From: Amycolatopsis mongoliensis
Lineage (GTDB): Bacteria > Actinomycetota > Actinomycetes > Mycobacteriales > Pseudonocardiaceae
Assembly: GCF_030285665.1 (NCBI RefSeq)
Contig: NZ_CP127295.1
Location: forward strand, 4,836,001 to 4,900,000
Reading direction: 5' to 3'
DNA length: 64,000 bases
In this document: piece after piece, positions 9,150-47,732 of the stretch
How the letters are laid out: every line of letters starts with the position of its first letter
Position numbering within the stretch: position 1 is the stretch's first letter
Position numbers and translations under genes: made by a program
The notes under the pieces: model-generated
Seen by the model: only the letters and a program-made list of their open reading frames with translations
What the model was told of the DNA's origin: nothing
Database searches by the model: none

Positions 9150-9193
9150 TCGTGAGTGAGAAACAGGGTTAGAACACTGTTTCTCACTCACGA
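9150..9193. repeat. 44-bp hairpin element, copy A
   Basis: An inverted repeat with 21-nt arms and a 2-nt loop (AG) between cobL and cobM. The arms read TCGTGAGTG, then the variable 8-mer AGAAACAG, then GGTT; the only mispair is G9167 with A9176. The same layout recurs at 40020-40063 and 47689-47732. It may act as a transcription terminator or attenuator after cobL, but no T-run follows. The preceding bases GCGGCTGG are shared with the copy at 47689. Confidence 0.85.
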
Positions 9194-9205
9194 GCCCTCC
9201 GGCGG

Positions 9206-10357
9206 TCACCGGCTGCTCCACTGCGTCACCGTCCGGGCGGGGGTCCACCCGGTGTACCCCCCGAGCGGCGCGGCGCGCTCGACCGCGATCCGCAGCAGCT
9301 CACCACCCCGCTCGGCGTACACGTCACCGAGGATCTGCTCGGCCTCCAGCGTCACCCCGTGCGCCACCAGCCGCGCGCCGGTGGCCAGGCACGTGTCCAG
9401 CAGGCCGGGCGCGGTCAGGCCGCCGCCGATGAAGATCGCGTCCGGTGCCGGGAGCGCGCTCAGCGACTCCGGGGCCGGGCCGGTCACCACCTGCAGCTCC
9501 GGTACCCCCAGGTCGAGGGCGTTCCGGCCGATCCGCTCGGCGCGTTCCGGGTCCTGCTCGATCGCGATGGCGCGGTTCAGCTCGTGCAGCCGCGACCACT
9601 CGATGCCGACGCTGCCCGCCCCCGCGCCGACGTCCCACAGCAGCTCACCGGGGCTCGGCGCGAGCCGCGCCAGTGCCGAGACGCGCAGGTCGCGCTTGGT
9701 CAGCTGGCCGTCGTGGGAGTACACGTCGTCCGGGATCCCGATCAGCGGCAGCGCCGGCCCCTCGCAGGTCAGCGCGAACACCGTCAGCGGGCCGGGGTCG
9801 CCGTCCCAGCCGTCGGAGATGCGCTCGTCCGGCCCGCCGAGGTTCTCCAGCGCGAACAGCTCGCTCTCGCCGTACCCGCGCACGGTCAGCAGGGAACGCA
9901 GGCCCGCCGCGTCGGCACCCAGGACGAGCACCCGCCGCCCCGGCGCCAGCACCCGGGCGACGCGGGCCGGCGACCGGCCGACGAGGGTCACCACCTCGGT
10001 CTCCTCGGCGGACCAGCCCAGCCGGGCCCGGGCCAGCGTCACCGACGAGACCGCGGGCAGCGCCTCGACCTCGTACCCGTGGGCCACCAGGGTGGTGCCG
10101 ACCCCCGACAGGAACGGATCGCCGCTGGCCAGGACGCAGATGCGCTGCCCTTCGTGCTCGGCGATGAGAGCGTCGAGCCCCGGCAGCAACGGCGACGGCC
10201 ACGGCTCGCACGGGACGTCCGGAGGCAGGTACGCCAGCTGCCGCGGTGCACCCAGCACCACGTCGGCGCCGAGCACCAGAGCCTGGGCCTGCTCGGAGAG
10301 TCCCGGCCATCCGTCGGCTCCGATCCCGACCACGGTCAACCGTGATTTTTCGCGCAC
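9206..10357 (-). CDS. cobL: precorrin-6Y C5,15-methyltransferase (decarboxylating)
   Basis: Bifunctional enzyme that methylates C-5 and C-15 and decarboxylates the C-12 acetate side chain of precorrin-6B. The 383 residues comprise an N-terminal CbiE-type methylase (LTVVGIGADGWPGL, VLASGDPFLSGVGTTL; about 1-205) and a C-terminal CbiT-type methyltransferase (LLWDVGAGAGSVGIEWSR, about 225-383). Start is GTG at 10357. It is divergent from the chelatase gene, with 68 bases between the two that must hold both promoters. The hairpin at 9150-9193 lies 13 bases beyond its stop. Confidence 0.95.
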   Translation of the reverse strand: MREKSRLTVVGIGADGWPGLSEQAQALVLGADVVLGAPRQLAYLPPDVPCEPWPSPLLPGLDALIAEHEGQRICVLASGDPFLSGVGTTLVAHGYEVEALPAVSSVTLARARLGWSAEETEVVTLVGRSPARVARVLAPGRRVLVLGADAAGLRSLLTVRGYGESELFALENLGGPDERISDGWDGDPGPLTVFALTCEGPALPLIGIPDDVYSHDGQLTKRDLRVSALARLAPSPGELLWDVGAGAGSVGIEWSRLHELNRAIAIEQDPERAERIGRNALDLGVPELQVVTGPAPESLSALPAPDAIFIGGGLTAPGLLDTCLATGARLVAHGVTLEAEQILGDVYAERGGELLRIAVERAAPLGGYTGWTPARTVTQWSSR

Positions 10358-10425
10358 GATTTCCCACCCTAAGCGAGCCGGGCCCTGTGCGATGATCGGC
10401 CGGTCGCCGACCTGGAGGAGTGCTG

Positions 10426-12378
10426 TTGAAGCCGTACCCGTTCACCGCCGTCGTCGGGCTGCCGGACCTGCGCCTGGCGCTGGTCCTCTCCTCGATCTCC
10501 CCCGCGGTCGGCGGGGTGCTGGTGCGCGGCGAGAAGGGTACGGCGAAGTCGACCATGGTGCGCGCGCTCGCGGGCCTGCTGCCGGGCGTCGACGTGGTGG
10601 GCGGCTGCCGGTTCTCCTGCGATCCCGCGGCTCCCGACCCGGTCTGCCCCGACGGCCCGCACCCCCCGGACGCGCGCGCTCACCGGCGCCCGGCGAAGCT
10701 CGTCGAGCTGCCGGTCGGCGCGGCCGAGGACCGCGTCGTCGGCTCGCTGAACCTGGAACGCGCGCTGGGCGAAGGCGTCACGGACTACCAGCCGGGCCTG
10801 CTGGCCGCCGCGCACCGCGGGCTGCTCTACGTCGACGAGGTCAACCTGCTCCACGACCACCTCGTCGACACCCTGCTCGACGCCGCCGCGATGGGCCGCG
10901 CGACCGTGGAGCGCGAGGGCGTCTCGGTGTCGCACGCGGCCCGGTTCGTGCTGATCGGCACCATGAACCCGGAGGAAGGCGAGCTGCGGCCGCAGCTGCT
11001 CGACCGGTTCGGCCTGACCGTCGAAGTCGCTTCCAGCCGCGACCCGGAGCAGCGCGTCGAGGTCGTCCGGCGCCGCCTCGCCTACGAGGCGGACCCGGAC
11101 GGCTTCGCGGCGGAGTACGCGGCCGAGGATGCGCAGCTCGCCGCGGACATCGAAGCGGCGCAACGGCTGCTGCCCGCCGTCAAGCTGCCCGACGACGCGC
11201 TGCGCCGGATCGCCGAAGTCTGCGCGTCCTTCGAGGTCGACGGCATGCGCGCGGACATCGTCACCGCGCGGACCGCGGTCGCGCACGCGGCCTGGGCCGG
11301 CCGCGACGAGGTGACCACCGACGACGTCCGCGTCGCCGCGCGGCTCGCGCTGCCGCACCGGCGCCGCCGGAACCCGTTCGACGCCCCCGGCATCTCGGAA
11401 GAGCAGCTGGAGCAGGCCCTTCAGGACGCCCAGCCCCCGGAGCCGGGCCCCGAAGACGACGGTCCCGGCTCGGGTTCGACGCCCGGGGAAGCGCCGCAGG
11501 AAGTCCCGCAGGGGGACGCGCCGCAGGGTCAGCCGCAGCAGCGGAACGGCGGGCAGCAGAAGACCGTCGGCGCCGGCGAGACGTTCAAGGCCCGCGTGTT
11601 CCGCGTCCAGGGCACGGGCGAAGGCGAGCGGGGACGCCGGTCGCGCGCGATCACCGACAGCGGCCGCACCATCGGCGTCCAGCCCCCGAGCGTCCGGGAC
11701 GGGCGGCCGCACCTGGTCGCCACCGTGAAAGCCGCCGCGCCGCACCAGAAGGCCCGCGGCCGCGACGGCGCCGGCCTGAAGCTGCGCCGCCAGGATCTCC
11801 GCTTCGCGCTGCGCGAAGGCCGTGAAGGCAACCTCGTGCTCTTCTGCGTCGACGCGTCCGGCTCGATGGGCGCGAAGGCGCGGATGCGCGAGGTCAAGTC
11901 CGCAGTGCTGTCGCTGCTGCTCGACGCCTACCAGCGCCGCGACAAGGTCGGGCTCGTCACGTTCCGCGGCACCGCCGCCGAGCTCGCGCTGCCGCCGACG
12001 ATCAGCGTCGACGCAGCCGCGTCCCGCCTCGAAGGCCTGCCGACCGGCGGCCGGACACCCCTCGCGGAAGGCCTCCTGGAGGCCGCGCGCGTGCTGCGCG
12101 TCGAGGAGATCCGCGACCCGCGGCGCCGTCCGCTGCTGGTCGTCGTCACCGACGGCCGCGCCACCAGCGGCCCCGACGCCGTCGCGCGCGCCCAGGCCGC
12201 GGCCGGGCTCCTGGGCGGGGTGACCTCCGTCGTCATGGACTGCGAGAGCGGCAGGATGCGCCTCGGCCTGGCCGCCGATCTCGCCACCCACCTGGGTGCC
12301 GAGCACGTGCCGCTGGCCGAGGTCGCCGCCGGATCCCTCGCCGACGCCGTCCGCTCGCGCACCGGAAGGGCCGCCTGA
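10426..12378 (+). CDS. fused ChlI-ChlD type metal chelatase ATPase subunit (cobalt insertion)
   Basis: A 650-residue fusion of an AAA+ ATPase (ChlI/BchI, about residues 1-330) and a von Willebrand A domain (ChlD, about 440-650). Walker A is GEKGTAKST at residues 35-43 and Walker B is LLYVDEVNLL; RPQLLDRFGLTVEV is the arginine-finger region. A Pro/Gln/Gly-rich acidic linker (about 330-390) leads to the VWA domain with MIDAS motif DASGSMG. In actinobacteria this protein is thought to power the CobN cobaltochelatase; no cobN is in the window. A GGAGGA at 10414-10419 lies 6 bases before TTG 10426, while the GTG at 10420 abuts it, so TTG is the likelier start. Confidence 0.92.
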   Translation: MKPYPFTAVVGLPDLRLALVLSSISPAVGGVLVRGEKGTAKSTMVRALAGLLPGVDVVGGCRFSCDPAAPDPVCPDGPHPPDARAHRRPAKLVELPVGAAEDRVVGSLNLERALGEGVTDYQPGLLAAAHRGLLYVDEVNLLHDHLVDTLLDAAAMGRATVEREGVSVSHAARFVLIGTMNPEEGELRPQLLDRFGLTVEVASSRDPEQRVEVVRRRLAYEADPDGFAAEYAAEDAQLAADIEAAQRLLPAVKLPDDALRRIAEVCASFEVDGMRADIVTARTAVAHAAWAGRDEVTTDDVRVAARLALPHRRRRNPFDAPGISEEQLEQALQDAQPPEPGPEDDGPGSGSTPGEAPQEVPQGDAPQGQPQQRNGGQQKTVGAGETFKARVFRVQGTGEGERGRRSRAITDSGRTIGVQPPSVRDGRPHLVATVKAAAPHQKARGRDGAGLKLRRQDLRFALREGREGNLVLFCVDASGSMGAKARMREVKSAVLSLLLDAYQRRDKVGLVTFRGTAAELALPPTISVDAAASRLEGLPTGGRTPLAEGLLEAARVLRVEEIRDPRRRPLLVVVTDGRATSGPDAVARAQAAAGLLGGVTSVVMDCESGRMRLGLAADLATHLGAEHVPLAEVAAGSLADAVRSRTGRAA

Positions 12379-12992
12379 TGCCGCAGGGGAAACCGGAAGC
12401 CGTCCCGGCCGACGGGCTGACCACGCGCCAGCGCCGCAACCGGCCGCTGCTCGCCGTGCACACCGGCGAGATGAAGGGCAAGTCGACCGCCGCGTTCGGG
12501 ATGGCGCTGCGCGCCTGGAACCAGGGCTGGTCGATCGGCGTGTTCCAGTTCGTCAAGTCGGCGAAGTGGCGCGTCGGCGAGGAAGCCGCGTTCCGCGCGC
12601 TGGGCAAGCTGCACGACGACACCGGTCAGGGCGGGCCGGTCGAGTGGCACAAGATGGGCGAGGGCTGGAGCTGGGCGCGCAAGTCCGGCACCGAGGAGGA
12701 CCACGCCGCGAACGCCCGTGAAGGCTGGGCGGAGATCAAGCGCCGGCTCGCCGCCGGGACGCACGACTTCTACGTCCTCGACGAGTTCTCCTACCTGCTC
12801 AAGTGGGGCTGGCTCGAGGTCGGCGACGTCGTGTCCACTTTGGTCTCGCGCCCGGGGCACCAGCACGTCGTCATCACCGGCCGGTACGCGCCGCCGGAGC
12901 TGGTCGAGGCCGCCGACCTGGTCGCCGAAATGACCAAGGTCAAGCACCCGATGGACGCCGGCCAGAAGGGCCAGCGGGGGATCGAGTGGTAG
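12378..12992 (+). CDS. cobO: cob(I)yrinic acid a,c-diamide adenosyltransferase
   Basis: Transfers the adenosyl group of ATP to cob(I)alamin precursors. The 204-residue protein is of the CobO/BtuR/CobA type: phosphate loop HTGEMKGKSTAAFGMALRA, then VFQFVKSAKWRVGEE, and HDFYVLDEFSYLLKWGWL, the family's conserved central motif. The C-terminus HVVITGRYAPPELVEAADLV is also conserved. The ATG shares its A with the TGA stop of the chelatase gene, and the 3' end overlaps cobB, so chelatase, cobO, cobB and cobC form one coupled operon. Confidence 0.96.
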   Translation: MPQGKPEAVPADGLTTRQRRNRPLLAVHTGEMKGKSTAAFGMALRAWNQGWSIGVFQFVKSAKWRVGEEAAFRALGKLHDDTGQGGPVEWHKMGEGWSWARKSGTEEDHAANAREGWAEIKRRLAAGTHDFYVLDEFSYLLKWGWLEVGDVVSTLVSRPGHQHVVITGRYAPPELVEAADLVAEMTKVKHPMDAGQKGQRGIEW

Positions 12993-14317
12993 CGCGCGTG
13001 GTCGTCGCCGCCCCCGGCTCCGGGCACGGCAAGACCACGATCGCCGCCGGGCTGATGGCGGCGCTGCGCGAGGCCGGGCACCGCGTGTCCGGGCACAAGG
13101 TCGGGCCCGACTTCATCGACCCGAGCTACCACGCGCTGGCGACCGGACGCCCCGCGCGCAACCTGGACCCGTTCCTGCAGGGCGAAGAGCGGCTGATCCC
13201 CTTGCTGCGCCACGGTTCCGCCGGGGCGGACATCGCCGTCATCGAGGGCGTGATGGGCCTGTTCGACGGCGCGCTCGGCACCGAGGGCTATGCCTCGACC
13301 GCGCACGTCGCCCGGCTCCTGGACGCGCCGGTGGTGCTGGTGGTGGACGCGTCGGCGGCGTCGCGCAGTGTCGCGGCGACCGTGCTCGGGTTCGCTTCCT
13401 ACGACACGCGGGTGCGGCTGGCCGGGGTCATCCTCAACAAGCTGGGCTCGCAGCGGCACCTCGACGAGATCGCGGCCGCGCTGGAGGCCACCGGCGTCCC
13501 GCTGCTGGGGGCGTTGTACCGCAACGAAGAGATCCACGCGCCGAGCCGGCACCTCGGTCTGGTGCCCGCGGCGGAACGGTCCGCGGAAGCCGAGCGCGTG
13601 CTGCCCTCGCTGGCCGCGTGGGTGCGGGACGGCGTCGACCTCGAGGCGATCGTCCGGATCGCTTCGGCGGCGTCTTCGCTTTCCGCGCCACCGTGGGAAC
13701 CGTCCGGTGTGGACGGTCCACGCGTGACGGTCGCGGCCGCCGGAGGTCCCGCGTTCACCTTCCGCTACACCGAGAACATCGAGCTGCTGGCCGCCTGCGG
13801 GGTCGACGTGGTCGACATCGACCCCCTGCGGGACAAGGCCCTGCCGGACGGGTGCGCCGGCCTTTACTTCGGCGGCGGCTTCCCGGAGGTGCACGCGGCG
13901 GAGCTGTCGGCCAACACCGCGTTGCGTCTCGAAGTCGCTTCGGCGATCGAACGCGGGATGCCGGTGAGCGCGGAATGCGCGGGCCTGCTGTACCTGTGCC
14001 AGTCGCTGGACGGCGTGCCGATGGTCGGCGCGGTGCCCGCGGACGCGAAGATGACCGCCCGCGGCAAGCTCGGCTACCGGCGCGCGGTCGCCGTCGAGGA
14101 CAACGTCCTGGCGACGGCGGGGCAGCGCGTCACCGGGCACGAGTTCCACCGCACCGAGGTCACGCCGTCGCACGGCGTGACGGCGGCGTGGGGCTGGGAC
14201 CGGCAGCTGGACGGCTTCGCGTCGCCGACGCTGCACGCGTCCTACCTGCACGTCCACTGGGCCGGGTATCCCGAGCTGGCCCAGCGGTTCGCGGCGCGGG
14301 TCCGGGCCCGTGCCTGA
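12986..14317 (+). CDS. cobB: cobyrinic/hydrogenobyrinic acid a,c-diamide synthase
   Basis: ATP- and glutamine-dependent amidation of the a and c side chains. The 443 residues contain an N-terminal dethiobiotin-synthetase-like ATPase (VVAAPGSGHGKTTIAAGL; KVGPDFIDPSYH, IEGVMGLFDG) and a C-terminal class I glutaminase with nucleophile Cys331 in SAECAGLLYL and a C-terminal catalytic His in LHASYLHVHWAG. The start is GTG at 12986, five bases after GGGGG at 12976-12980; GTG 12998 is a possible alternative. It overlaps cobO by 7 bases and cobC by 8. Confidence 0.95.
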   Translation: MVARVVVAAPGSGHGKTTIAAGLMAALREAGHRVSGHKVGPDFIDPSYHALATGRPARNLDPFLQGEERLIPLLRHGSAGADIAVIEGVMGLFDGALGTEGYASTAHVARLLDAPVVLVVDASAASRSVAATVLGFASYDTRVRLAGVILNKLGSQRHLDEIAAALEATGVPLLGALYRNEEIHAPSRHLGLVPAAERSAEAERVLPSLAAWVRDGVDLEAIVRIASAASSLSAPPWEPSGVDGPRVTVAAAGGPAFTFRYTENIELLAACGVDVVDIDPLRDKALPDGCAGLYFGGGFPEVHAAELSANTALRLEVASAIERGMPVSAECAGLLYLCQSLDGVPMVGAVPADAKMTARGKLGYRRAVAVEDNVLATAGQRVTGHEFHRTEVTPSHGVTAAWGWDRQLDGFASPTLHASYLHVHWAGYPELAQRFAARVRARA

Positions 14318-15326: not shown

Positions 15327-15410
15327 ACACCGACAGGGGGCTGTCGCCGGCACCGCCGAGAGTGGGTGTCGCCGCCGGGAACCGCCCGGCGTGGCAGCGA
15401 AAGGACCGAC

Positions 15411-16461: not shown

Positions 16462-16492
16462 GTCGTCGACCCTAGGCGTGGGGTACGACGTT

Positions 16493-17239: not shown

Positions 17240-17260
17240 GAGCGCCCCAAGGCGGCCTTC

Positions 17261-17380
17261 GGTGCGTGGGGCGCACCGAAGGCCACATTGGGTGCGTGGG
17301 ACGCACCGAACGCCACATTGGGTGCGTGGGACGCACCGAACGCCACATTGGGTGCGTCCCACGCACCCAACGCCACATTG
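17261..17380. repeat. four tandem 30-bp repeats between cobT and cobS
   Basis: Four end-to-end units at 17261-17290, 17291-17320, 17321-17350 and 17351-17380. Units 2 and 3 are identical; unit 1 differs at two bases; unit 4 has the loop GGG changed to CCC plus one further change. Each unit contains the small hairpin GGTGCGT-GGG-ACGCACC, or a variant of it, followed by CGAACGCCACATTG or a close variant. The period of 30 is a multiple of 3, so all frames stay open and give artefactual repeats such as GAWDAPNATL. There are no spacers, so this is not a CRISPR array. Confidence 0.93.
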
Positions 17381-17399
17381 GGGCGCTCGGGACCTCCGC

Positions 17400-24313: not shown

Positions 24314-24364
24314 CCGTGAATGGCTCATCGAGGGACTTCAAGTCCCTCGATGAGCCATTCACGG
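24314..24364. terminator. 25-bp perfect hairpin between convergent genes
   Basis: Arms 24314-24338 and 24340-24364 are perfect reverse complements around a single C; a real hairpin would open several bases at the tip. It lies 12 bases after the ROK stop and 3 bases after the stop of the DeoR gene on the other strand, so it can serve as a terminator for both. It has no T-run. It shares the TGAATG/CATTCA core with the hairpins at 58116-58171. Confidence 0.85.
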
Positions 24365-37290: not shown

Positions 37291-40011
37291 ATGTCCAGAC
37301 CACTGCCGAGGTTCGCCGGACGGCTGCGCACGGCGGCGCTCGCCGCCCTCCTCCTGGGGGCCGGGCTCGCGGCACTGCCCGCGTCGCCGGCAAGCGCGGC
37401 CTCACCAGCCCTCACGCAGTACGTGAATCCCTTCATCGGCACGGACAACAGCAACTCCCCGAACCCCGTGCCCGGCGGCGCCGGCGGCAGCACGTACCCG
37501 GGCGCGGTCGTGCCCTTCGGGATGACGCAGTTCAGCCCGGACACCCCGACCGGGTCGCCGTCCGGCTACCGCTACAGCGACACCAGCATCGAGGAGTTCA
37601 GCCTCACCCACTTCAACGGCGCCGGCTGCCCCAACAACGAGGACCTCGGCCTGCTGCCGATCACCGGCGCGATCGGCACCTCGCCCGGCACCGGCTGGAC
37701 CGGCTACGCCGGCCGCTACACGAAAGCGAACGAGTCGGCCGCGCCCGGCTACTACAAGAACAAGCTCGACAACTACAACACGACCGTCGAGCTGTCCGCG
37801 ACCCAGCGGTCCGGCTTCATGAAGCTGACCTACCCGAACACCACGAGCGCGCGGCTGCTGGTCAACACCGGCCGCAGCGCGACCGGCAACCGCAACGGAA
37901 GCATCAGCATCAGTGGCAGCCAGCTCACCGGCTCGGTGACCGGTGGCGGCTTCTGCGGGTCGTCGAAGACCTACCAGATCTTCTACGTCGTCCAGTTCGA
38001 CCGCGCGCCCAGCGGCTTCGGCACCTGGCTCGGCGGCACGGTGACCGCCGGGTCCGCGAGCACCAGCGGCACGAACTCCGGCGGCTACGTCACCTTCGAC
38101 ACCTCTGCCAACACCACCGTGCAGGCGAAGGTCGGCATCTCCTTCGTCAGCCTGGCCAACGCACAGGCGAACCTCGCCGCCGAGAACCCCGGCTTCGACT
38201 TCGCCGGGATCCGCGCCGCCGCCGACACGAGCTGGAACACGATCCTCAACCGCGTCCAGGTGACCGGGGGCGCGGCCGCGGACCTGCAGAAGTTCTACAC
38301 GGCGCTCTACCACGTGTTCCAGAACCCGAACGTCGCCAGCGACACGAACGGCCAGTACCGCGGGTTCGACCAGGCGATCCACACCGCGTCGCACACCGTG
38401 TACCAGAACTACTCCGGCTGGGACATCTACCGGTCGTGGGCCGCGCTGATCGGGCTGGTCGCGCCCACCGAAGCGAGCGACATCGCGAAGTCGATGGTGC
38501 TGGACGGCCAGCAGGGCGGGTTGCTGCCCAAGTGGTCGCACAACAACAACGAGCACTTCGTGATGACCGGTGACCCCGGGCCGATCGTCGTCGGCAGCAT
38601 GTACGCCTTCGGGGTCCGCGGATTCGACACGGCGGCCGCGCTGACCCTGATGGACAAGAGCTCCAACGGCGGCACCACGCAGGGGCAGGCGATCCGCGGC
38701 CGCCAGTCCGGGTACGTCAGCCGGCACTACGTCACCGAGGACCCGTCGGACTCGCTCGAGTACTCGGCATCGGACTTCGCGGTGGCGCAGTTCGCGAAGG
38801 CCGTCGGCGACACGACGAAGTACACCACCTACATGCAGCGCGCCCAGTGGTGGCAGAACGTCTTCGGCACCGACTCCGGCTACATCCAGCCGCGGGGCAG
38901 CACCGGCACGTGGGCCTGGCCGGTCGTGCCGTCGAGCAACAGCGGCTACACCGAGGGCAACCCGTCGCAGTACACGTGGATGGTGCCCTACAACTACCAG
39001 GGCGTGATCAACCTGATGGGCGGGGCGACGACCGCCGTCCAGCGGTTGGACCACCACTTCACCCAGCTCAACGGCGGCCTCACCCAGCCGTACTTCTACA
39101 TCGGCAACGAGCCCGAGCACGGCGTGCCGTGGGCGTACAACTACGCCGCCCACCCGCAGGGCACCAGCTCGGCGGTGCGGCGCGTGATGAACGAGTCGTT
39201 CACCACCGGCGCGGGCGGCCTGCCCGGCAACGACGACCTCGGCGCGACGTCGGCGTGGTACGTCTTCGCCGCGCTGGGGATGTACCCGGCGACCCCGGGC
39301 GCAGACGTGCTGGCCCTGCACGGCCCGCTGTTCCCCTCGGTCTCGATCGTCCGCCCGAGCGGCACGATCCAGATCACCGGAAGCGGTGCTGGCCAAGGCG
39401 CGCAGTACGTGCAGGGCCTGAGCGTCAACGGCGTTTCGACGACCAAGTCGTGGATCCGCTACGGCGACATCGCGGGCGCGTCGACGCTGAACTACACGAT
39501 GGGCTCGTCGGCGAGCGCGTGGGGCACGACCGCGGCGGACGTCCCGCCGTCCTACAACGACGGGTTCACCCCGCCGCCCGCCGCGCCGGAGCTCGGCCCG
39601 AACCTGGCGCAGGGCAAGGCGGCCACTGGCTCGGCGGCGTGCAACTCGGCCGAGGGCGCGGCCAACGCGGTCGACGGCAGCCTGGCGAACAACAGCAAGT
39701 TCTGCAGCACCGCCGCCACGAAGTTCCTCCAGGTGGACCTCGGGTCGGTGCAGAACGTGTCGTCGTTCGTCGTCAAGCACGCCGGCCTCGGCGGTGAGAC
39801 CACGGCCTGGAACACCGGCGCCTTCACGATCCAGACGTCGACCGACGGCTCGACCTGGACGACGGTCGCCTCGGTGTCCGGTTCGCGGGCCAGCCGCACG
39901 TACCACCCGATCACGACCCGGTCGGCCCGGTACGTGAAGCTGAACCTCACCACCCCGGCCAACGACGGCAACGGCGCGGCCCGGATCTACGAGTTCGAGG
40001 TCTACCACTGA
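37291..40011 (+). CDS. secreted GH92 alpha-mannosidase with C-terminal F5/8C (CBM32-like) domain
   Basis: A 906-residue exported enzyme that should release mannose from alpha-linked mannosides or glycans. A signal peptide ends near ASPASAA (about residue 36). The GH92 domain (about 40-750) opens with YVNPFIGTDN and PGAVVPFGMTQFSPDTP; by family comparison Glu555 in YTEGNPSQYTW is the proton donor and Asp648/649 in GNDDLGATSAWYVF are at the base/metal site. From about residue 765 a discoidin-like carbohydrate-binding domain begins with NLAQGKAATGSAACNS and ends IYEFEVYH. ATG 37291 follows GGGAGAGGAA. Two LacI-type operators precede it. Confidence 0.95.
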   Translation: MSRPLPRFAGRLRTAALAALLLGAGLAALPASPASAASPALTQYVNPFIGTDNSNSPNPVPGGAGGSTYPGAVVPFGMTQFSPDTPTGSPSGYRYSDTSIEEFSLTHFNGAGCPNNEDLGLLPITGAIGTSPGTGWTGYAGRYTKANESAAPGYYKNKLDNYNTTVELSATQRSGFMKLTYPNTTSARLLVNTGRSATGNRNGSISISGSQLTGSVTGGGFCGSSKTYQIFYVVQFDRAPSGFGTWLGGTVTAGSASTSGTNSGGYVTFDTSANTTVQAKVGISFVSLANAQANLAAENPGFDFAGIRAAADTSWNTILNRVQVTGGAAADLQKFYTALYHVFQNPNVASDTNGQYRGFDQAIHTASHTVYQNYSGWDIYRSWAALIGLVAPTEASDIAKSMVLDGQQGGLLPKWSHNNNEHFVMTGDPGPIVVGSMYAFGVRGFDTAAALTLMDKSSNGGTTQGQAIRGRQSGYVSRHYVTEDPSDSLEYSASDFAVAQFAKAVGDTTKYTTYMQRAQWWQNVFGTDSGYIQPRGSTGTWAWPVVPSSNSGYTEGNPSQYTWMVPYNYQGVINLMGGATTAVQRLDHHFTQLNGGLTQPYFYIGNEPEHGVPWAYNYAAHPQGTSSAVRRVMNESFTTGAGGLPGNDDLGATSAWYVFAALGMYPATPGADVLALHGPLFPSVSIVRPSGTIQITGSGAGQGAQYVQGLSVNGVSTTKSWIRYGDIAGASTLNYTMGSSASAWGTTAADVPPSYNDGFTPPPAAPELGPNLAQGKAATGSAACNSAEGAANAVDGSLANNSKFCSTAATKFLQVDLGSVQNVSSFVVKHAGLGGETTAWNTGAFTIQTSTDGSTWTTVASVSGSRASRTYHPITTRSARYVKLNLTTPANDGNGAARIYEFEVYH

Positions 40012-40019
40012 CCCACCGG

Positions 40020-40063
40020 TCGTGAGTGGTTAGGGCGGTTAGAACCGCCCTAACCACTCACGA
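40020..40063. repeat. 44-bp hairpin element, copy B
   Basis: Arms of 21 nt around the 2-nt loop AG: TCGTGAGTG, variable 8-mer GTTAGGGC, GGTT, then the exact complement; flanking CCGG/CCGG extends pairing to 40016-40067. It lies 8 bases after the GH92 stop, and on the minus strand its TCG-TGA supplies the last Ser codon and stop of the GNAT gene. It can act as a terminator for both convergent genes. Confidence 0.92.
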
Positions 40064-40630
40064 CCGGGCTGCGGCAGACCACTCGTCGCGGGTGATCGCG
40101 TACTCGACTTCGCCGTGTTCGCTGCCCGGCGCCCGCTCGTGCTCCGGGAACTCCTCGAAGTACGTGCGGACGAACGTCATCCCCAGTTTCTCCATCACGC
40201 GGCGCGAGCGTTCGTTCACCGTCATCGTGAACGCCGTGACGCGGCGGACCCCCAGCTCCGTGAAGCCCTTGGCGAGCAGCGCCGCCGAGCCTTCGGTTCC
40301 GTAGCCCTTGCCCCAGGCCCGCTGGTGCAGCCGGTACCCCAGCTCCGGCTCGTCCGGCGGGTCCTGCGGGCGCGGGCGGAAATGGAACCACCCCAGGAAA
40401 TCACCGGTGCTCTTCTCGATCGCCGCCCAGAACCCGTAACCGGGGAAACGCTCGTAGTAACCGAGGAACGCGGGAAGATCCAGCGTGACGATCTCGGTGC
40501 GGTCGGCCGGCTGTCCCCCATTGAGGTACTTCATCACGGCCGGGTCGTCGTAGAGCTCGAAGAGCAAGTCGGCGTCGTTCTCGGTGAACCGGCGGAAGAT
40601 CAGCCGCTCGGTTTCGAGGAATACGTGCAT
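40058..40630 (-). CDS. RimJ/RimL-type GNAT acetyltransferase
   Basis: A 190-residue GNAT protein of the RimJ/RimL group, which acetylates protein N-termini or small amines. It begins MHVFLETERLIFRRFTENDADLLFELYDDPAVMKYL, typical of the group, and has ELGYRLHQRAWGKGYGTEGSAALL with the acetyl-CoA loop WGKGYGTE, then FTMTVNERSRRVMEKLGM. The substrate is unknown. ATG 40630. The C-terminus ends Arg-Ser-stop encoded by CGG TCG TGA, the last six bases of which belong to hairpin element B. Confidence 0.93.
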   Translation of the reverse strand: MHVFLETERLIFRRFTENDADLLFELYDDPAVMKYLNGGQPADRTEIVTLDLPAFLGYYERFPGYGFWAAIEKSTGDFLGWFHFRPRPQDPPDEPELGYRLHQRAWGKGYGTEGSAALLAKGFTELGVRRVTAFTMTVNERSRRVMEKLGMTFVRTYFEEFPEHERAPGSEHGEVEYAITRDEWSAAARS

Positions 40631-40670
40631 CGGGTGATGCTGTCAGTGACCCCAGTGCGTGGCAATGCAA

Positions 40671-40928
40671 TTACGCGGCGACGGCGAAGGCCTCGCCCAG
40701 CGCCAGCGAGCCGGCCCCGGTCAGCACGGCGGGCACGCGCTCGCCGCACTTGCCGGGACGGGCGGGTGCGATCAGGCCGAGCCGCGCGAGCCGGTGCACG
40801 GTGGACTGGTCGCAGCAGCTCAGGCCGTCGATGAACAGGTCGGGCTCGCAGCTGCAGCTGATCTCGGCGTGGCCCCCGGCCACGGCTCTCAACGTGGCCC
40901 GCTCACGGTGGTTCAGTTCCGTTGTCAT
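40671..40928 (-). CDS. small Cys-rich winged-helix-like protein, unknown function
   Basis: An 85-residue protein with five cysteines: C25 and C27 in ISCSCEPD, C38 and C39 in LSCCDQST, and C61 in GKCGER. The segment CDQSTVHRLARLGLIAPARPGKCGERVPAVLTGAGSLAL reads like a recognition helix followed by a wing, so a metal-binding or redox-responsive DNA-binding role is possible; this is inference. ATG 40928 has a good GGAGG seven bases upstream, which supports a real gene. It stands alone on the minus strand between the GNAT and Lrp genes. Confidence 0.72.
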   Translation of the reverse strand: MTTELNHRERATLRAVAGGHAEISCSCEPDLFIDGLSCCDQSTVHRLARLGLIAPARPGKCGERVPAVLTGAGSLALGEAFAVAA

Positions 40929-41053
40929 GGCGGTGCCTCCTTCCCGTCAGGGACTCATTAGACCGCCCACCACCGACATTTTCCGCCTTTGAGGGTGCGA
41001 ACCCGGGTATTTCAAGGGGAACACTTAGGGGTGGCGTGTCGCACTCACCAGGG

Positions 41054-41518
41054 TTACCCCGGCGGAAGTGGTCCAAGCGTCGTCTTGCGCAGGTGACGGA
41101 AAACGATCGACGTCCGGAATCCGACGATCTCCCGGCGCAGGGCCAGCCGGTCGGCCAGGAACGCGTGCAGCGCGTCGATGTCGGGCGTCGTCACTTCGAT
41201 CAGGAAATCGTCACTGCCCGCGGTCACGTACACCGAAAGCACCTCCGGCAGTTCCGAGATCGACCGCTGGAACTCGTCGATGACCGCCCGGCTCAGCGGC
41301 CGCACCTGCGCCGCGACGAGCGCCCGGACGCCGCGGTTGAGGCTCGCCAGGTCGATGTCGGCGTGGTAGCCGCGGATGACGCCCCGCTCGCGCAGCAGCC
41401 GGATGCGTTCGAGGCACGTCGAGGGCGCGATGCCGACCTTCCGGGCGATCTCCCGGTTGGTCTGCCGGGCGTCCTCCTGCAGGTGCCGCACGATCGCCGA
41501 ATCAAGTTCGTCCAGCAC
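41054..41518 (-). CDS. Lrp/AsnC-family regulator
   Basis: A 154-residue Lrp-type regulator. N-terminal HTH: LDELDSAIVRHLQEDARQTNREIARKVGIAPSTCLERIRLLRERGVIRGYHADID; C-terminal RAM ligand domain with VLSVYVTAGSDDFLIEVTTPD, where Gly-Ser-Asp-Asp is the effector-binding loop. Start GTG 41518. It is divergent from the amino-acid dehydrogenase gene with 77 bases between, containing a palindrome, and is adjacent to a branched-chain amino-acid transporter, so it most likely senses leucine, valine or a related amino acid. Confidence 0.94.
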   Translation of the reverse strand: MLDELDSAIVRHLQEDARQTNREIARKVGIAPSTCLERIRLLRERGVIRGYHADIDLASLNRGVRALVAAQVRPLSRAVIDEFQRSISELPEVLSVYVTAGSDDFLIEVTTPDIDALHAFLADRLALRREIVGFRTSIVFRHLRKTTLGPLPPG

Positions 41519-41536
41519 GGGAGCCTCCGGGGTCGT

Positions 41537-41553
41537 GCCGAATTTCGTTCGGC
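41537..41553. promoter_or_regulatory. candidate Lrp-type operator
   Basis: GCCGAA-TTTCG-TTCGGC is a perfect 6-bp inverted repeat with an AT-rich 5-bp centre, lying 18 bases before the Lrp start in the Lrp/dehydrogenase intergenic region. A second, imperfect inverted repeat built on two GTCGAC blocks follows at about 41560-41575. Both fit cooperative binding of an Lrp octamer, but this rests on position. Confidence 0.5.
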
Positions 41554-41595
41554 GACATGTCGACAGTGTCGACGTTCACCCTAACTTCAGTCGGT

Positions 41596-42630
41596 ATGAC
41601 CGCACATGAACAGCTCGTCGCCCGGCGTGGCCGTCGATCCGGCGTCACCACGATGGTCGCGATCCATTCGACCGCCCTCGGCCCGGCCGTCGGCGGCTGT
41701 CGCCTGAAGCCCTACGCCGACCTCACCCGGGCCGTCGACGACGTCCTGCGCCTGTCGGCCGCGATGACGGCGAAGTGCGCCGTCGCGGGGCTCGCGTTCG
41801 GCGGCGGCAAGAGCGTCATCGCGCTGGAGCCCGGCCGCGTCCTCTCGCCGGAGGAGCGCCGGGACGTCCTGCTCGACCACGCCGACCTGGTCGCCGAGTT
41901 CGGTGGCACCTACCTGGCCGGCCCGGACGTGGGCACCGGCCCGGCCGACATGCTGGTGCTGCGCGAGGTCTCGGCGTTCGCGTTCTGCACGCCCGAGTCC
42001 GCGGGCGGCACCGGCTCCTCCAGCGGCCCGACCGCCGTCGGTGTGCTGGCCGCCCTGCGAGCCGCGCTCGGCTCGCCGGACATGACCGGCCGCCGGGTGG
42101 TGATCAGCGGCTACGGCTCGGTCGGCGCACACCTCGCGGCGAGCCTGCACGCGAGCGGTGCCGACGTCGTCGTCTCCGACATCGACCCGGCGAAGCGCGC
42201 CGACGCCGAGAGCGGCGGGTTGACCTGGGTCGAGCCCGAGAAAGCGCTCACCCTGACCGCCGATGTGGTGATCCCGGCGGCGATCGGCGGGGTGCTGAGC
42301 CCCGAGACGGTGGCCCGGCTCGACACGCCGCTCGTCGTCGGCCCGGCCAACAACCAGCTCACCGACGACGCCGTCGCCGACGACCTCGCCGCCCGCGGTG
42401 TCCTGTGGGTCCCGGACTACGTGGCGAGCGCGGGCGGGATCCTCTACACGCTCTCGCGCGAAGCGGAGGGCCTGGACCACGACGCCGCGCTCGCCCGGGT
42501 CGAGACGATCGAACGGACCGTCGAGGACCTCCTGAAGGCCGCGCAGGCCAACGCGACCACCCCGCTGCACGAGGCGGCCGCGCTGGCCGGGCGACGGCTC
42601 ACTTCTGGTGCGGCGCCACGTACTCCTTAG
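41596..42630 (+). CDS. Leu/Phe/Val-type amino-acid dehydrogenase
   Basis: A 344-residue NAD-dependent oxidative deaminase of the leucine/valine/phenylalanine dehydrogenase group. The catalytic part has STALGPAVGGCRLKPY, K60 in AMTAKCAVAGLAFGGGKSVI (Lys72 in the GGGK) and YLAGPDVGTGPADM; the NAD domain has VVISGYGSVGAHLAASL and NNQLTDDAVADDLAARGVLWVPDYV. Valine dehydrogenase of streptomycetes is a good analogue; the exact amino acid is not fixed. ATG 41596. It overlaps the convergent livK-like gene by 32 bases and is divergent from the Lrp gene. Confidence 0.92.
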   Translation: MTAHEQLVARRGRRSGVTTMVAIHSTALGPAVGGCRLKPYADLTRAVDDVLRLSAAMTAKCAVAGLAFGGGKSVIALEPGRVLSPEERRDVLLDHADLVAEFGGTYLAGPDVGTGPADMLVLREVSAFAFCTPESAGGTGSSSGPTAVGVLAALRAALGSPDMTGRRVVISGYGSVGAHLAASLHASGADVVVSDIDPAKRADAESGGLTWVEPEKALTLTADVVIPAAIGGVLSPETVARLDTPLVVGPANNQLTDDAVADDLAARGVLWVPDYVASAGGILYTLSREAEGLDHDAALARVETIERTVEDLLKAAQANATTPLHEAAALAGRRLTSGAAPRTP

Positions 42631-43849
42631 CCTCGGGCGCTTCGAACAGCGGCTTGACGTACCGGACGCCGCCCTCGGCGGTGGCGTCCGGGGTCGCCGC
42701 GTACACCTGGCGCGTCGCCGGCGTCCCCGGCTTGGAGAAGTCGAGCGCCGCGACCAGGTTGTCGGTGTTCGCCGACGTCGTCTGCTTGAGCGCCGCGGCG
42801 ATGCCGTCGCGGGTCAGGTCCTTGTTGTCGCAGGCCTTCTTCAGCACCGCGCCCCACACCTCGCCGACGGCGTAACCGTAGGGAACACCACCGTTCGGCG
42901 TCTCCTTGTACGCCGCCTTGTACTTCGCCGCGACGTCCTTGGCCTTCGGCAGGTCGGCCGAGAACGGCACGCTGCTGGCGACGATCGTGAGCTTGTCGAG
43001 CGCCCCGGCGGCCGGGCTCTTGAGCAGCGCCGGGTCGAACGTCGGGTTGTTGCCCAGCACCGGCACGTTCAGCCCGAGCGCCTTGTTCGCAGCGACGGCG
43101 GACCCGGTCTGCGCGGGCGTGGTGGTCAGCGCGATCAGCTTCACCCCGGCGCCCTTGAGGCCGGTGACGACGTTGGTGAGGTCGCTGTCGGTCGAGGTGA
43201 TCTTCACCTCCTTGACCGTCAGGTTGTGCTTCTTCGCGTAGAACTGCGAACCGCGCAGGCCGTTCTTGCCGTACTCGCCGTCGATGTAGACGTGCGCGAT
43301 CGTGTCGCCGTCCTTGAGCTGCCCCTGCTCCTGCAGGTACGCCAGGCCGTCGATCATCTCCACGTCGTAGGTGGTGCCGACGATCATCACGTACGGGTTG
43401 TCGAGCAGCTCCGACGACCACGACGCGGGCGCGGCGACGGCCTTGTCGGTCGCCAGGTTCTGCTTCAGCGCGGCGACGACGGGCGAGCCGAGCAGCTGCA
43501 CGAACCCGAGCACCTTCGGCTCGATCTGCGGGTACAGCGTCTTCGCCGTGTCGGCCTTGTAGCCGTGGTCGACCTCTTCGAGCTTCACCTGCCGTCCGCA
43601 GACGCCGCCGGCGGCGTTGAAGTCCTTGGCCCACAGCTCGTTGCCCTGCGTGACGCCGAGGCCGAGGTTCTTGAAGACGCCGGACTTGTCGGTCATCACG
43701 CCGAGCGTCACCTCGGTGGCGGTCACCCCCTTGCCGGTCTTGACGCCCGAGCTGTCCGAGCCCGACGAGCCCGAGTCGCCCGCTTTCGTGCTGCAGCCGG
43801 CGAGGGTCAGGACGACCGCCAGCGTCACCGCCAGGTGTGTGCGTTTCAT
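42599..43849 (-). CDS. livK: branched-chain amino-acid ABC transporter, substrate-binding lipoprotein
   Basis: A 416-residue lipoprotein: signal sequence with lipobox LTLAGC (Cys19), a Ser/Gly linker, then a type I periplasmic binding fold (VTLGVMTDKSGVFKNLG, NAAGGVCGRQVKL, VLGFVQLLGSPVVAAL, NNPTFDPALL). ATG 43849 follows GGAGGAACC. It is the last gene of the liv operon and overlaps livM by 4 bases (ATGA). The ligand is probably a branched-chain amino acid or related compound. Confidence 0.93.
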   Translation of the reverse strand: MKRTHLAVTLAVVLTLAGCSTKAGDSGSSGSDSSGVKTGKGVTATEVTLGVMTDKSGVFKNLGLGVTQGNELWAKDFNAAGGVCGRQVKLEEVDHGYKADTAKTLYPQIEPKVLGFVQLLGSPVVAALKQNLATDKAVAAPASWSSELLDNPYVMIVGTTYDVEMIDGLAYLQEQGQLKDGDTIAHVYIDGEYGKNGLRGSQFYAKKHNLTVKEVKITSTDSDLTNVVTGLKGAGVKLIALTTTPAQTGSAVAANKALGLNVPVLGNNPTFDPALLKSPAAGALDKLTIVASSVPFSADLPKAKDVAAKYKAAYKETPNGGVPYGYAVGEVWGAVLKKACDNKDLTRDGIAAALKQTTSANTDNLVAALDFSKPGTPATRQVYAATPDATAEGGVRYVKPLFEAPEAKEYVAPHQK

Positions 43850-45021
43850 GGTTCCTCCGCGGGTTGACCGGGTTGACGGCGAAGACGTTTCTGCGTGATC
43901 CGGCGGCCGATCGCGGCGAGGCCGCCCGGCTCGAACAGCACGACGAGGATGATCGCGGCGCCGTAGACGAACGAGCTGACCAGGATCGGGGTCAGCGCGC
44001 CGTCGCCGGTGCCGGAGAACCAGCCGAGGTCGGCGGAGTACAGGGCGAGGACCTGCGGCAGGCCGTTGACGATCAGCGCGCCGACCAGCGCGCCGGGGAC
44101 CGAGCCGAGCCCGCCGATGATGACCATCGCGAGGTAGGCGATGGACACGTTGATGCCGTAGGTGCCGAACTCGCTCTCGTCCGGCTTGAGGATGTCGAAC
44201 CACAGCACGGTCATCGCGCCGGCGAGGCCGCCGTAGGCCGACGATACGGCGAACGCGCCCGCCTTGGCGCGCAGCACGCTGACCCCCATCACCGCGGCCG
44301 CGGCCTCGTTGTCGCGCACCGCGCGCCACGACCGGCCGACCCGGCCGCGGACGGCGCCGCGCGCGATCACGAACGCCAGCACGGTGAGCAGCAGGAACAG
44401 GTACCACGTGCGCTCGGCCTGCTGGATCGGCACGCCGAGCAGCGTGATCTGCGGGCCGTCGTTGGTGAAGGGGAAGCCGAACAGCGAGAACGGCGCGGGG
44501 GCGCGCCCGGTCGACGTCCCGCCGGTGAGCTCCTCGGCCGACTGCCCGAAGTAGAGGCCGAGGAACACCAGCGCCAGCGAGGCGACGCCGAGGTAGATCC
44601 CGCGCAGCCGCCCGGCCACCGGTGCGAAGGCCAGGCCCAGCAGTGCCGAGACGACCACCGCGCCGAGCAGCGACAGGCCGGGGTCCAGGCCGAAGCCGAC
44701 GACGCGGTCGTCGCCGGTGGGCCCGGAGAGCACGGTGTAGGCCGTGCCGCCGGCGAGCAGGAAGAACGCGTGCGCCAGCGAAAGCTGCCCGGCCTGCCCG
44801 ACCACAAGCGTCAGCCCGATCGCGCCGACCCCGCCGATCATCATGTACTGCCCGGCCTTGAGCCAGGCCGCGTCGAGGTAGAGCGGCAGGGCGAGCAGGA
44901 CGACCAGCAGCACGAGCCACGCGGCCCCGCGCACCAGCTTCGCCAGGTCGCGGTGCGGCTTGACCGGCGGCTCGCCGGCCGCGGGCGGGCTGTCCACTTC
45001 GGACACGGCGCTTTCAGACAC
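43846..45021 (-). CDS. livM: branched-chain amino-acid ABC transporter, LivM permease
   Basis: A 391-residue permease with about ten hydrophobic segments after a polar N-terminus. GLTLVVGQAGQLSLAHAFFLLAGG is the LivM signature, and GRSWRAVRDNEAAAAVMGVSVLRAKAGAFAVSS is the cytoplasmic coupling loop that contacts the ATPases (EAA-like). GGLGSVPGALVGALIVNGLP is conserved too. Start GTG 45021, overlapping the livH stop by 8 bases. It pairs with LivH at 45014-45892. Confidence 0.94.
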   Translation of the reverse strand: MSESAVSEVDSPPAAGEPPVKPHRDLAKLVRGAAWLVLLVVLLALPLYLDAAWLKAGQYMMIGGVGAIGLTLVVGQAGQLSLAHAFFLLAGGTAYTVLSGPTGDDRVVGFGLDPGLSLLGAVVVSALLGLAFAPVAGRLRGIYLGVASLALVFLGLYFGQSAEELTGGTSTGRAPAPFSLFGFPFTNDGPQITLLGVPIQQAERTWYLFLLLTVLAFVIARGAVRGRVGRSWRAVRDNEAAAAVMGVSVLRAKAGAFAVSSAYGGLAGAMTVLWFDILKPDESEFGTYGINVSIAYLAMVIIGGLGSVPGALVGALIVNGLPQVLALYSADLGWFSGTGDGALTPILVSSFVYGAAIILVVLFEPGGLAAIGRRITQKRLRRQPGQPAEEP

Positions 45022-45892
45022 GGGTTCGCTCCCTCGTGCCGAACAGCCCCGAGGGCCGCACCACCAGGACCACCAGCATCACGAGGAACACCGCGCTCTT
45101 CGAGAAGTCGAACGAGACGTACTGCGCGGACAGCGCTTCCACGAGCCCGACGACGAGGCCGCCGACCACCGCGCCCGCCGTCGAGTCGAGGCCGCCGAGG
45201 ATCGCCGCGGGAAAGGCCGCCAGCGCGATCGAGTGCGTCCCGCGCGAAAGCCCGGCGCCGGAGAAGTCCTGCGTCGCGATGAACAGCACGGCCACCCCGG
45301 CCAGCAGGCCGGCGACCAGCCAGGCCGTCGCGGTGACGCGGGAGCTGCGGATGCCCATCAGCGCGGCGGCTTCGCGGTTCTCCGCCTGCGCCCGCATCGC
45401 CACGCCCCAGTTCGAGTACTTGAAAGCCAGCCAGAACGCCGTGATGAGCACCGCGGCCACGCCGAGGGCGACCAGGTGCGTGCGGAACAGCGTGATCCCG
45501 CCGAGCTGGAACGGCTTCGCGTCCCAGGCGCCGCCGAGGAAGGGGAGCGTGACCCCGAGGCGGCGCACGATCTCCTCGGTGACGATCACGTCGACGCCGA
45601 TGGTGAGCAGGGCCAGGCTGTTCGCGTCGGCGTGCCGGGAGCGGGACAGCAGCAGCCGTTCCACGACCAGGCCGAGCAGCCCCGCCGAAACGATGCCGGC
45701 CAGGGACGCGCCCACCCAGCCCAGCGCGTCCCGTGTCACCACGACGAGGTAGCCGCCGAAGAGCACGAGCGAGCCGTGCGCGAAGTTGACCACTTCGGTG
45801 GCCTTGAAGATGATCACGAACCCCAGCGCCAGCAGCGCGAACACCGCGCCCTTGCCGAGCCCGTTCACCGTGAGCTGCAGGAATGTGTTCAC
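45014..45892 (-). CDS. livH: branched-chain amino-acid ABC transporter, LivH permease
   Basis: A 292-residue permease. It starts VNTFLQLTVNGLGKGAVFALLALGFVIIFKATEVVNFAHG, the LivH hallmark, and has the coupling loop WGVAMRAQAENREAAALMGIRSSRVTATAWLVAG and AFPAAILGGLDSTAGAVVGGLVVGL. GTG 45892 overlaps the livG stop as GTGA, which fixes the start. It forms the membrane channel with LivM. Confidence 0.95.
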   Translation of the reverse strand: MNTFLQLTVNGLGKGAVFALLALGFVIIFKATEVVNFAHGSLVLFGGYLVVVTRDALGWVGASLAGIVSAGLLGLVVERLLLSRSRHADANSLALLTIGVDVIVTEEIVRRLGVTLPFLGGAWDAKPFQLGGITLFRTHLVALGVAAVLITAFWLAFKYSNWGVAMRAQAENREAAALMGIRSSRVTATAWLVAGLLAGVAVLFIATQDFSGAGLSRGTHSIALAAFPAAILGGLDSTAGAVVGGLVVGLVEALSAQYVSFDFSKSAVFLVMLVVLVVRPSGLFGTRERTRV

Positions 45893-46721
45893 GCCGCCTC
45901 CGTGCCCAGGTAAGCCTTGATGACGTCCGGGTCGGCCTGGACCTGCGCCGGGGTGCCGTCGGCGATGCGGCGGCCGAAGTCGAGCACCGTGACCCGGTCG
46001 GCGATGCCCATCACCAGGCCCATGTCGTGCTCGACGAGCAGGATCGAGATGCCCAGCTCGGCGCGGATCCCGCTGATCGTGCCGGCCAGCTCCGCGGTCT
46101 CCGCCGCGTTCATCCCGGCGGCGGGTTCGTCGAGCAGGAGCAGCACCGGCTCGACGGCGAGCGCCCGGGCGAGGTCGACGCGCTTGACGACGCCGTAGGG
46201 CAGTGCGCCGACCGGAGCGTCGACGACCGCGTCGAGGCCGAGGAACGCGCAGATCTCGCGGGCGCGTTCGGCGTGCCGGCGTTCGGCGCGGACCGTCCAC
46301 GGCAGCCGGAGCCCGGCAGCGAGGAACCCGCCGCGGGTCAGCGCGTGGCGTCCGAGCATGACGTTGTCGAGCACGGTGGAGCCGGCCGACAGCGCGGCGT
46401 TCTGGAAGGACCGCCCGACGCCGAGCCCGGCGAGCTTGTGCGGGGCGAGCCCGGTGAGGTCGGTTTCGCCGAGCCGCACGCGGCCGGCGTTGGCCCGGTA
46501 GAGGCCGCTGATCACGTTGAAGCAGCTGGACTTCCCGGCGCCGTTCGGCCCGATCAGCGCGTGCAGCGAGCCGGGGGCGACGGTGAACGAGACGTCGTCG
46601 AGCGCGCGGATCCCGCCGAACCGCAGGGAAACGCCTTCGACGCACAGCTTTTCGGGGGTCCGGGTGGCGAAGCCCCCGGCCCGAGGCGAAGCCTCGGCCG
46701 GCACCGGCAGCTCCGGCGGCG

Positions 46722-46725
<4 letters not shown>
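45889..46725 (-). CDS. livG: branched-chain amino-acid ABC transporter, LivG ATPase
   Basis: A 278-residue ABC ATPase of the LivG type. Walker A ALIGPNGAGKSSCFNVISG, Q-loop GVGRSFQNAAL, signature in YGVVKRVDLARAL (a divergent signature, as is usual in LivG), Walker B VLLLLDEPAAGMN and H-loop ILLVEHDMGLVM. The Pro/Glu-rich first 25 residues come before the ATPase fold. ATG 46725 is chosen over GTG 46734 because it overlaps the livF stop as ATGA. Confidence 0.95.
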
Positions 46726-47531
<806 letters not shown>

Positions 47532-47568
47532 GGACTCACTCCAGGGCGCAAGAGGCCTCCTCCACTCG

Positions 47569-47584
47569 TGTGACGTGAGTCACC
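47569..47584. promoter_or_regulatory. CRP/GlxR-like site upstream of the liv operon
   Basis: TGTGACGTGAGTCACC matches the actinobacterial CRP/GlxR pattern TGTGA-N6-TCACA at 9 of 10 fixed positions and has the preferred T in the third spacer position. It lies 38 bases upstream of livF. A cAMP-responsive regulator is not in the window, so function is inferred from the match. Confidence 0.5.
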
Positions 47585-47688
47585 GTCGGTGGCGGTCATC
47601 CTGCGATCAGGCGCGGCTCTCGGACACCCCCACTTGGAGACCCCGCGGGACACGAAACGGACACGGCGAAGCTCCCTACCGCGGCTGG

Positions 47689-47732
47689 TCGTGAGTGTTT
47701 AGGAGGGTTCTAACCCTCCTAAACACTCACGA
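47689..47732. repeat. 44-bp hairpin element, copy C
   Basis: Arms of 21 nt around the 2-nt loop CT: TCGTGAGTG, variable 8-mer TTTAGGAG, GGTT, then exact complement; GG/CC outside extends it to 47687-47734. On the minus strand its TCG-TGA gives the last Ser codon and stop of the PHP gene, so it is at the 3' end of that gene and before the liv promoter. It shares the 5' flank CCGCGGCTGG with copy A. Confidence 0.92.

Follow-up and report, generated by a model that had tools for sequence, protein, structure and literature searches.

The stretch of Amycolatopsis mongoliensis DNA analyzed here (the window: 64,000 bases, positions 4,836,001–4,900,000 of a genome assembled as one contig of 10,811,244 bases) contains three short hairpins, A, B, and C, that lie at gene ends and belong to a dispersed 44-bp family whose copies evolve in concert within genomes. 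A sequence-only reading had described them as three elements of one plan, with constant outer ends, a constant tip, and a variable 8-mer matched on the opposite arm, and direct reading confirmed both their positions and this plan. Genes were called with a simple codon-usage caller. Hairpin A (9150–9193) has 21-nt arms that are 95% complementary and the middle AGAAACAG; its single mispair adjoins the tip, which for that reason is GGTT/AACA, and the gene upstream of the element, a minus-strand tetrapyrrole methylase gene (9206–10333), stops 12 nt before it. Hairpin B (40020–40063) carries the perfect middle GTTAGGGC, and its pairing extends to 40016–40067 (25 nt, 100% complementary). Convergent genes stand on either side, a plus-strand glycosyl hydrolase family 92 gene (37291–40011) that ends 8 nt before the hairpin and a minus-strand GNAT acetyltransferase gene (40058–40630) whose TGA stop codon is inside the end of the hairpin. 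Hairpin C (47689–47732) has the perfect middle TTTAGGAG with pairing that extends to 47687–47734 (23 nt, 100% complementary), and the TGA stop codon of a minus-strand PHP-domain gene (47727–48533) falls inside its end, within the outer TCGTGA. Each middle is matched on the other arm and only A is mispaired, as had been described; the accompanying statement that the 8-mers differ at most positions holds for A and B (7 of 8) and for A and C (5 of 8) but not for B and C (3 of 8). The RNA folding z-scores were −8.8 for A, −11.2 for B on both strands, and −12.5 for C, and the predicted hairpin energies were −32.3 kcal/mol, −53.0 and −52.4 kcal/mol (the two strands of B), and −43.5 kcal/mol, respectively. 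An Rfam scan of the window returned no family reaching its gathering score.

The hairpin family and its interior classes

The family is not limited to the window: the pattern CGTGAGTG-N10-40-CACTCACG matched at 162 places genome-wide and the reversed-pattern control at none. On the basis of these counts and the folding z-scores, the three window elements are far beyond chance. The spacing between the two 8-mers was 26 bases in nearly all of the matches listed, so the length of the element is nearly fixed. For close reading, 40 stretches of 20 kb that had been picked to contain exact-end copies were combined with the window, giving 864 kb and 56 copies. The base outside CGTGAGTG was T at all 112 ends of these copies, followed by G or C, which defines the constant end as TCGTGAGTG; this T is the only invariant position there, and no constant tetranucleotide is present. 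A flank matching GCCGCGGCAGACC with at most two mismatches adjoins 17 of the 112 ends, on both sides in one copy, and the sequences diverge beyond it. We read this flank as a probable remnant of a longer palindrome of ∼76 bp. The flank of A (9134–9149, GGTCTGCCGCGGCTGG) was likewise interpreted as an arm of a longer ancestral palindrome; for B one side is given (40064–40080, CCGGGCTGCGGCAGACC), and the flank of C (47674–47688, CCCTACCGCGGCTGG) is a weaker match made by eye, outside the 17 that were counted. When copies were sought by their interiors alone (30 of the AGGGC type and 10 of the AAACAG type), both exact 9-bp ends were found in 40 of 40, a result valid for the 864 kb, whose stretches were preselected for exact-end copies.

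Interior classes were assigned in 60 copies from the same genome that had been located by their ends alone. The two arms were identical in 49 and mixed in 11. Among the identical-arm copies the classes were TTTAGGGC (16 copies), GTTAGGGC (10), AGAAACAG (8), TTCAGGGC (4), and seven rarer ones, with TTTAGGAG pure in 2. The variable middles are not private: there are few classes, each common to many copies. Six of the 60 copies have the mispaired tip of A (GGTTAGAACA), which indicates that the tip was copied. The argument that private middles rule out a copied repeat therefore fails, as all three window middles and the mispair are shared with other copies.

The same pattern was found in 34 of 36 genomes of the genus, including the present one, and in 0 of 24 genomes from other families of the order. 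Copy number within the genus ranged from 0 to 497 and exceeded 100 in several genomes. In a survey of 200 genomes of the family, 26 of 46 genera had a match, with counts of one or two matching those of the reversed control; 11 genera had at least 10 copies in some genome, omitting one (g50) whose control also matched 32 times. The strict plan was found at 80 or more loci of named genomes, the listed sources being Amycolatopsis, Kibdelosporangium, Prauserella, an Actinophytocola bin, and Rhodococcus rhodnii. Among the matches listed for other genera the ends were kept while the interior, and often the tip, was different; because these searches demand 8- or 9-bp ends, they establish the existence of such copies but say nothing on how frequently the ends vary. 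Copies in R. rhodnii, a member of another family, occur at six of the loci read (L296, L301, L309, L311, L328, and L354), with middles such as TTTTGGCC, GTTTGGCC, and TTTAGTCC, and suggest horizontal spread. A search for the RAYT transposase (PF01797) gave no match in any of the 36 genus genomes; it did give matches in 3 of the 24 other genomes and, among controls, in 5 of 14. RAYT-driven REPINs were rejected on the basis of this absence.

Concerted exchange at orthologous sites

Relatives of A. mongoliensis (denoted by G numbers) were compared over ∼60 kb of syntenic DNA, read in 18 of them, with median protein identities to the present genome of 89.4–94.5%. At site B, an exact-end copy occupies the same place in 12 of 29 relatives' loci, and none of the 12 carries the middle of B itself; one further locus (G275) holds an imperfect copy. 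Site C was read in 29 relatives' loci, two of which are paralogous genes; four hold a copy, in every case with a middle other than that of C. No hairpin was present at site A in the 29 relatives' loci read, and part of the outer flank is retained in the closest relative (G272). Copies at site B used for these reads and for the pairing count were located by a hairpin scan. In eleven of the orthologues, all with exact ends, 99.1% of 231 cells were paired and 7 of the 21 base pairs showed double changes, numbers to be read with the constant outer pairs and the high pairing being partly built in by that origin. In G258 a shorter copy stands in the same gap beside the other gene, and in G266 an insertion sequence that encodes a DDE_5 transposase (L171, 17754–19226) sits in the tip and splits the hairpin into its two arms. 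Two further occupants of site B were observed: a palindrome made of the outer-flank motif (GAGTGGTCTGCCGCGG and its complement) in G259 (L070), and, in G278 (L068), a hairpin of similar interior whose ends are CGTGAAGGGG. The junctions in these two genomes look as if ends were exchanged between families.

Another 17 sites of the present genome (denoted by s numbers) were traced into five relatives, giving 69 site-by-genome reads in which copies were located by their ends alone. An exact 44-bp copy was present in 32 of the reads, and G005 has a shortened interior at s14; in the remaining reads no member of the family was present in the 420 bp covered, and some had other hairpins. Of the 32 copies, 18 had identical arms, 11 had one difference between the arms, and 3 had two or three. 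Fifteen sites could be compared between at least two species; there the interior was exchanged on both arms, with the constant ends preserved and often the flanks as well. The adjoining gene pieces are 80–97.5% identical, which leaves time for change.

The dispersed 44-bp hairpins evolve in concert, because their interiors are nearer to those of other copies in the same genome than to the orthologous copy in another species. Arm distances were compared among 74 copies at 23 sites in 12 species (20 from the present genome, 7–11 from each of five relatives, and 1–2 from each of six others). The mean distance was 0.356 between sites within one species (395 pairs), compared with 0.490 between species at one site (149 pairs) and 0.501 for copies sharing neither (2157 pairs). 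When species were shuffled within sites, the observed within-species value was reached in 0 of 400 trials, and when sites were shuffled within species, the observed same-site value or a lower one arose in 83 of 400, so that no overall site memory was detected. Each of the well-sampled genomes has its own prevailing interior: TTTAGTCG was pure in 24 of 62 copies listed for G005 (of 171 genomic copies), GTAAGGCG was the largest class in G017 (8 pure among 25 listed), and AGAAACAG was pure in 6 of 8 copies at orthologous sites in G245. The interior classes do not follow the species tree. When those at site B were set against a tree of 22 genes, AGAAACAG was present in the non-sister species G245 and G291, and the sisters G003 and G005 carried TGAAACAG and TTTAGTCG, respectively.

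Flanks and interiors behaved differently. The identities of the 15-bp flanks were 0.61 and 0.56 (best flank, 0.72) for 146 orthologous pairs versus 0.36 (best flank, 0.44) for 2339 non-orthologous pairs, whereas interior identity was 0.51 and 0.53, respectively. For the 84 orthologous pairs with interior identities of 0.5 or less, 48 retained a 15-bp flank at 80% or more, compared with 89 of the 2339 non-orthologous pairs. At s6, the present genome, G017, and G291 share identical 15 bases on the left and nearly identical ones on the right, and their interiors are TTTAGGGC, GTAAGGAG, and CGTAACAG. The unchanged flanks argue that no unit of 66–76 bp was re-inserted at this site, since such a unit would have altered them. 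The suggestion that the hairpins are REP (repetitive extragenic palindromic)-like elements with swapped middles comes close to these data, the middles being exchanged in place.

The mixed-arm copies of A. mongoliensis, G005, and G021 point to possible exchange of one arm at a time. In G005, 18 of the 62 listed copies were mixed, and the mean arm difference was 0.56 compared with 1.87 when arms were re-dealt at random, whereas in G021 the arms were mixed in 23 of 27 copies and the difference (3.04) was no smaller than that obtained by random dealing (2.77). Strict selection for structure in the middle thus does not hold everywhere.

Position at gene ends

Of the 56 closely read copies, 50 are intergenic (28 in convergent gaps, 20 in codirectional gaps, and 2 in divergent gaps). 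Five overlap called genes, three of them at the 3′ end and two inside a polyketide synthase (PKS) gene, and the last copy lies at the edge of a stretch. Compared with the 431 gaps of at least 40 bp in the same stretches (78 convergent and 146 divergent), and with the five gene-overlapping copies and the edge copy set aside, convergent gaps were enriched in copies (Fisher p = 8e-11) and divergent gaps were depleted (p = 1e-7). All but one of the 20 codirectional copies are closer to the upstream stop codon than to the downstream start, and the TGA within CGTGA serves as the stop codon at 22 gene ends. Three or more T residues in the 8 nt past the stem were found at 8 of 70 gene ends, close to the ∼10% background, and a U-tract (canonical intrinsic) terminator was rejected on this basis. 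A consensus terminator scan of positions 39500–48500 picked up neither B nor C. The tip is unbiased in orientation relative to the upstream gene (34 AG, 34 CT, one CA, and one TG). The elements do have a stable stem shortly past the stop codon without a U-tract, as in I-shaped (U-less) terminators, and we consider it likely from their placement that the job of the family is that of a bidirectional, U-less 3′-end hairpin or terminator. The earlier proposal of terminators under structural selection is in keeping with the gene-end placement and with the identical arms of most copies in A. mongoliensis and of 18 of the 32 in relatives, but not with G021, where arms resemble each other only as random ones would.

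Other hairpin families were observed in the same DNA. A second family of the same plan, with constant ends CCGTGAATG, a near-constant inner block AT(T/C)GAGGGAC, and an arm-matched variable middle (GCAC, TCGC, or GCTC), has seven copies in the 864 kb (window positions 24314–24364 and loci L021, L026, L042, L047, L049, and L052). Further families, of the CCCAATGTGGCGTTCGGTGCG, GTGAATGACTCATTC, and CCGTGAAGGCCTCCTT types, occur at 17246–17370 and 58115–58170 of the window and in L018, L034, L036, L041, and L046, and several of these have the CGTGA end in common.

Explanations and relation to known systems

The explanation we favor, and judge reasonably probable, is that the 44-bp palindromes derive from an older mobile repeat, were kept as gene-end hairpins, and had their interiors homogenized by ectopic exchange. 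The family would probably have arisen from a longer (∼76-bp) mobile palindromic repeat, whose palindromes may have been retained at gene ends as bidirectional U-less 3′-end hairpins that act as I-shaped terminators or as shields of mRNA 3′ ends. Interiors would then be exchanged ectopically among copies at separate chromosomal positions, anchored mainly by what the copies share, the conserved 9-bp ends and the tip. Exchange of a single arm would yield the mixed-arm copies, arm-to-arm templating (quasipalindrome correction), as described for other hairpins (PMC8794818), could restore full pairing, and selection for an intact hairpin would presumably clear copies that no longer fold. The jumps between distant copies over 9-bp ends might be driven by template jumps at stalled forks, by RecA-type conversion across 44 bp, or by a dedicated enzyme. 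Copying, as opposed to recurrent mutation, appears to be favored by the recurrent mispaired tip and by the shared site-B class of the non-sisters G245 and G291. Several points weigh against this explanation. The comparison is between species rather than strains, and no donor-recipient event was seen. For 36 of the 84 interior-changed pairs both flanks fell below 80% identity, so that these give no support to exchange in place. Some memory of site exists: four species have mixed-arm copies of similar sequence at s1, and 2 of the 32 copies, those of G288 at s6 and s9, have arms identical to those of A. mongoliensis. The two copies inside the PKS gene are in frame within a single gene of more than 13.7 kb (L018, 4284–4325 and 9789–9830), by position outside its best-scoring domain stretches, and they speak against a strong autonomous terminator because one would hardly be tolerable there unless suppressed by translation. 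Tolerance of insertions could partly account for the placement.

A variant in which a dedicated system recognizes the inverted 9-bp ends and swaps the hairpin cassette in place between dispersed sites, in tracts of at most 44 bp and with one cassette type spreading while site and flanks stay fixed, seems to us possible but unlikely. We give about the same low credence to targeted re-insertion, by which a transposase would put new copies into existing copies or gene-end hairpins with loss of the old copy, so that sites persist and occupants change. A longer ancestral unit, the copies in R. rhodnii, and the presence or absence of the element as one unit of 66 bases at s4 (the present genome versus G245) are in line with it, and the insertion sequence in G266 shows that such tips can be targets. 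On the other side, flanks are orthologous right up to the 44-bp core at several sites (s6 and s1), the genus genomes searched lack RAYT, and no clear target-site duplication was seen at six aligned sites (s1, s3, s4, s11, s16, and s17). A scan for autonomous elements with arms 150–6000 bp apart in 416 loci (3.45 Mb, overlaps included) returned one case, which appeared twice in the output, the G266 insertion sequence; an autonomous element with the ends of the family was not found in these loci.

Pure structural RNA evolution, with independent compensatory substitutions at each site for a stable terminator and resemblance within species through shared mutational bias, is improbable. Although the pairing and double changes at site B (partly built in by the selection of copies) and the divergence of the adjoining genes would suit it, the ends would be free to drift, yet they are exact in all 40 copies found by interior in the preselected stretches; the same classes occur in different species, one interior is common to many copies per genome, unpaired tip letters were copied as well, and likeness within species across sites exceeds same-site likeness across species. 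The least probable explanation, very doubtful in our estimation, is that the hairpins are binding sites of a sequence-specific protein that recognizes the constant ends and possibly also a species-typical interior, with concerted change following change of the protein, since the retention of ends in several other genera where the interior and often the tip differ (in searches that required ends) is outweighed by the copied mispairs and mixed arms it leaves unexplained, the many coordinated double mutations needed at each site, and the lack of any identified candidate protein.

Several known systems resemble the family in part. Concerted evolution is usually treated for long repeats with ample homology, as in the long genes of rRNA operons; here the unit is 44 bp long and the copies have in common 9-bp ends and a short tip. 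The likeness to the concerted evolution of bacterial repeated genes such as rRNA operons (PMC6002687) is that same-genome copies are more alike than orthologues. REP and REPIN elements, which are associated with RAYT (Y1) transposases, are similarly short repeated extragenic palindromes that form hairpins and populations within a genome (PMC3116915, PMC8049555); the present family, unlike those described there, has no Y1 transposase in the genus genomes searched and exchanges its interior at fixed orthologous sites. It also lacks the GTAG or CGTC tag that REP and REPIN elements carry at one end (PMC3733652). The highly structured U-lack 3′ ends and bidirectional 3′ ends reported for Streptomyces clavuligerus, in PMC8269248, resemble our elements in having a stable GC-rich stem right past the stop codon with no U-tract; the I-shaped terminators of GC-rich bacteria treated there are defined by structure only, whereas here a single sequence family with constant ends is dispersed and homogenized. 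Stem-loop sequence families of bacterial genomes are also repeated, mostly intergenic, and share a common predicted hairpin, and the abstract of PMC2267715 contains no exchange at orthologous sites. In hairpins maintained by template switching, a single event can alter both arms with pairing kept, as here, but the process described in PMC8794818 acts within one hairpin region, whereas our interiors match distant copies in the same genome. No account of this element or of in-place concerted exchange of 44-bp hairpin interiors was found among the titles and abstracts listed, with most subscription literature being outside the scope of that search. Repeats resembling REPs and terminators without a U-tract are already known; what is new here is how the copies evolve, by concerted exchange in place at orthologous gene ends.

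Concerted evolution is seen here among 44-bp hairpins, at over 100 sites in several of the genomes, in the absence of RAYT, the transposase known to mobilize palindromes of this sort. Exchange, if direct, would call for a short-tract recombination or template-jump process of a kind not known to us, and it would be another source of the compensatory changes that are commonly taken to prove RNA structure. The hairpin families are also ready terminator candidates for Amycolatopsis engineering.

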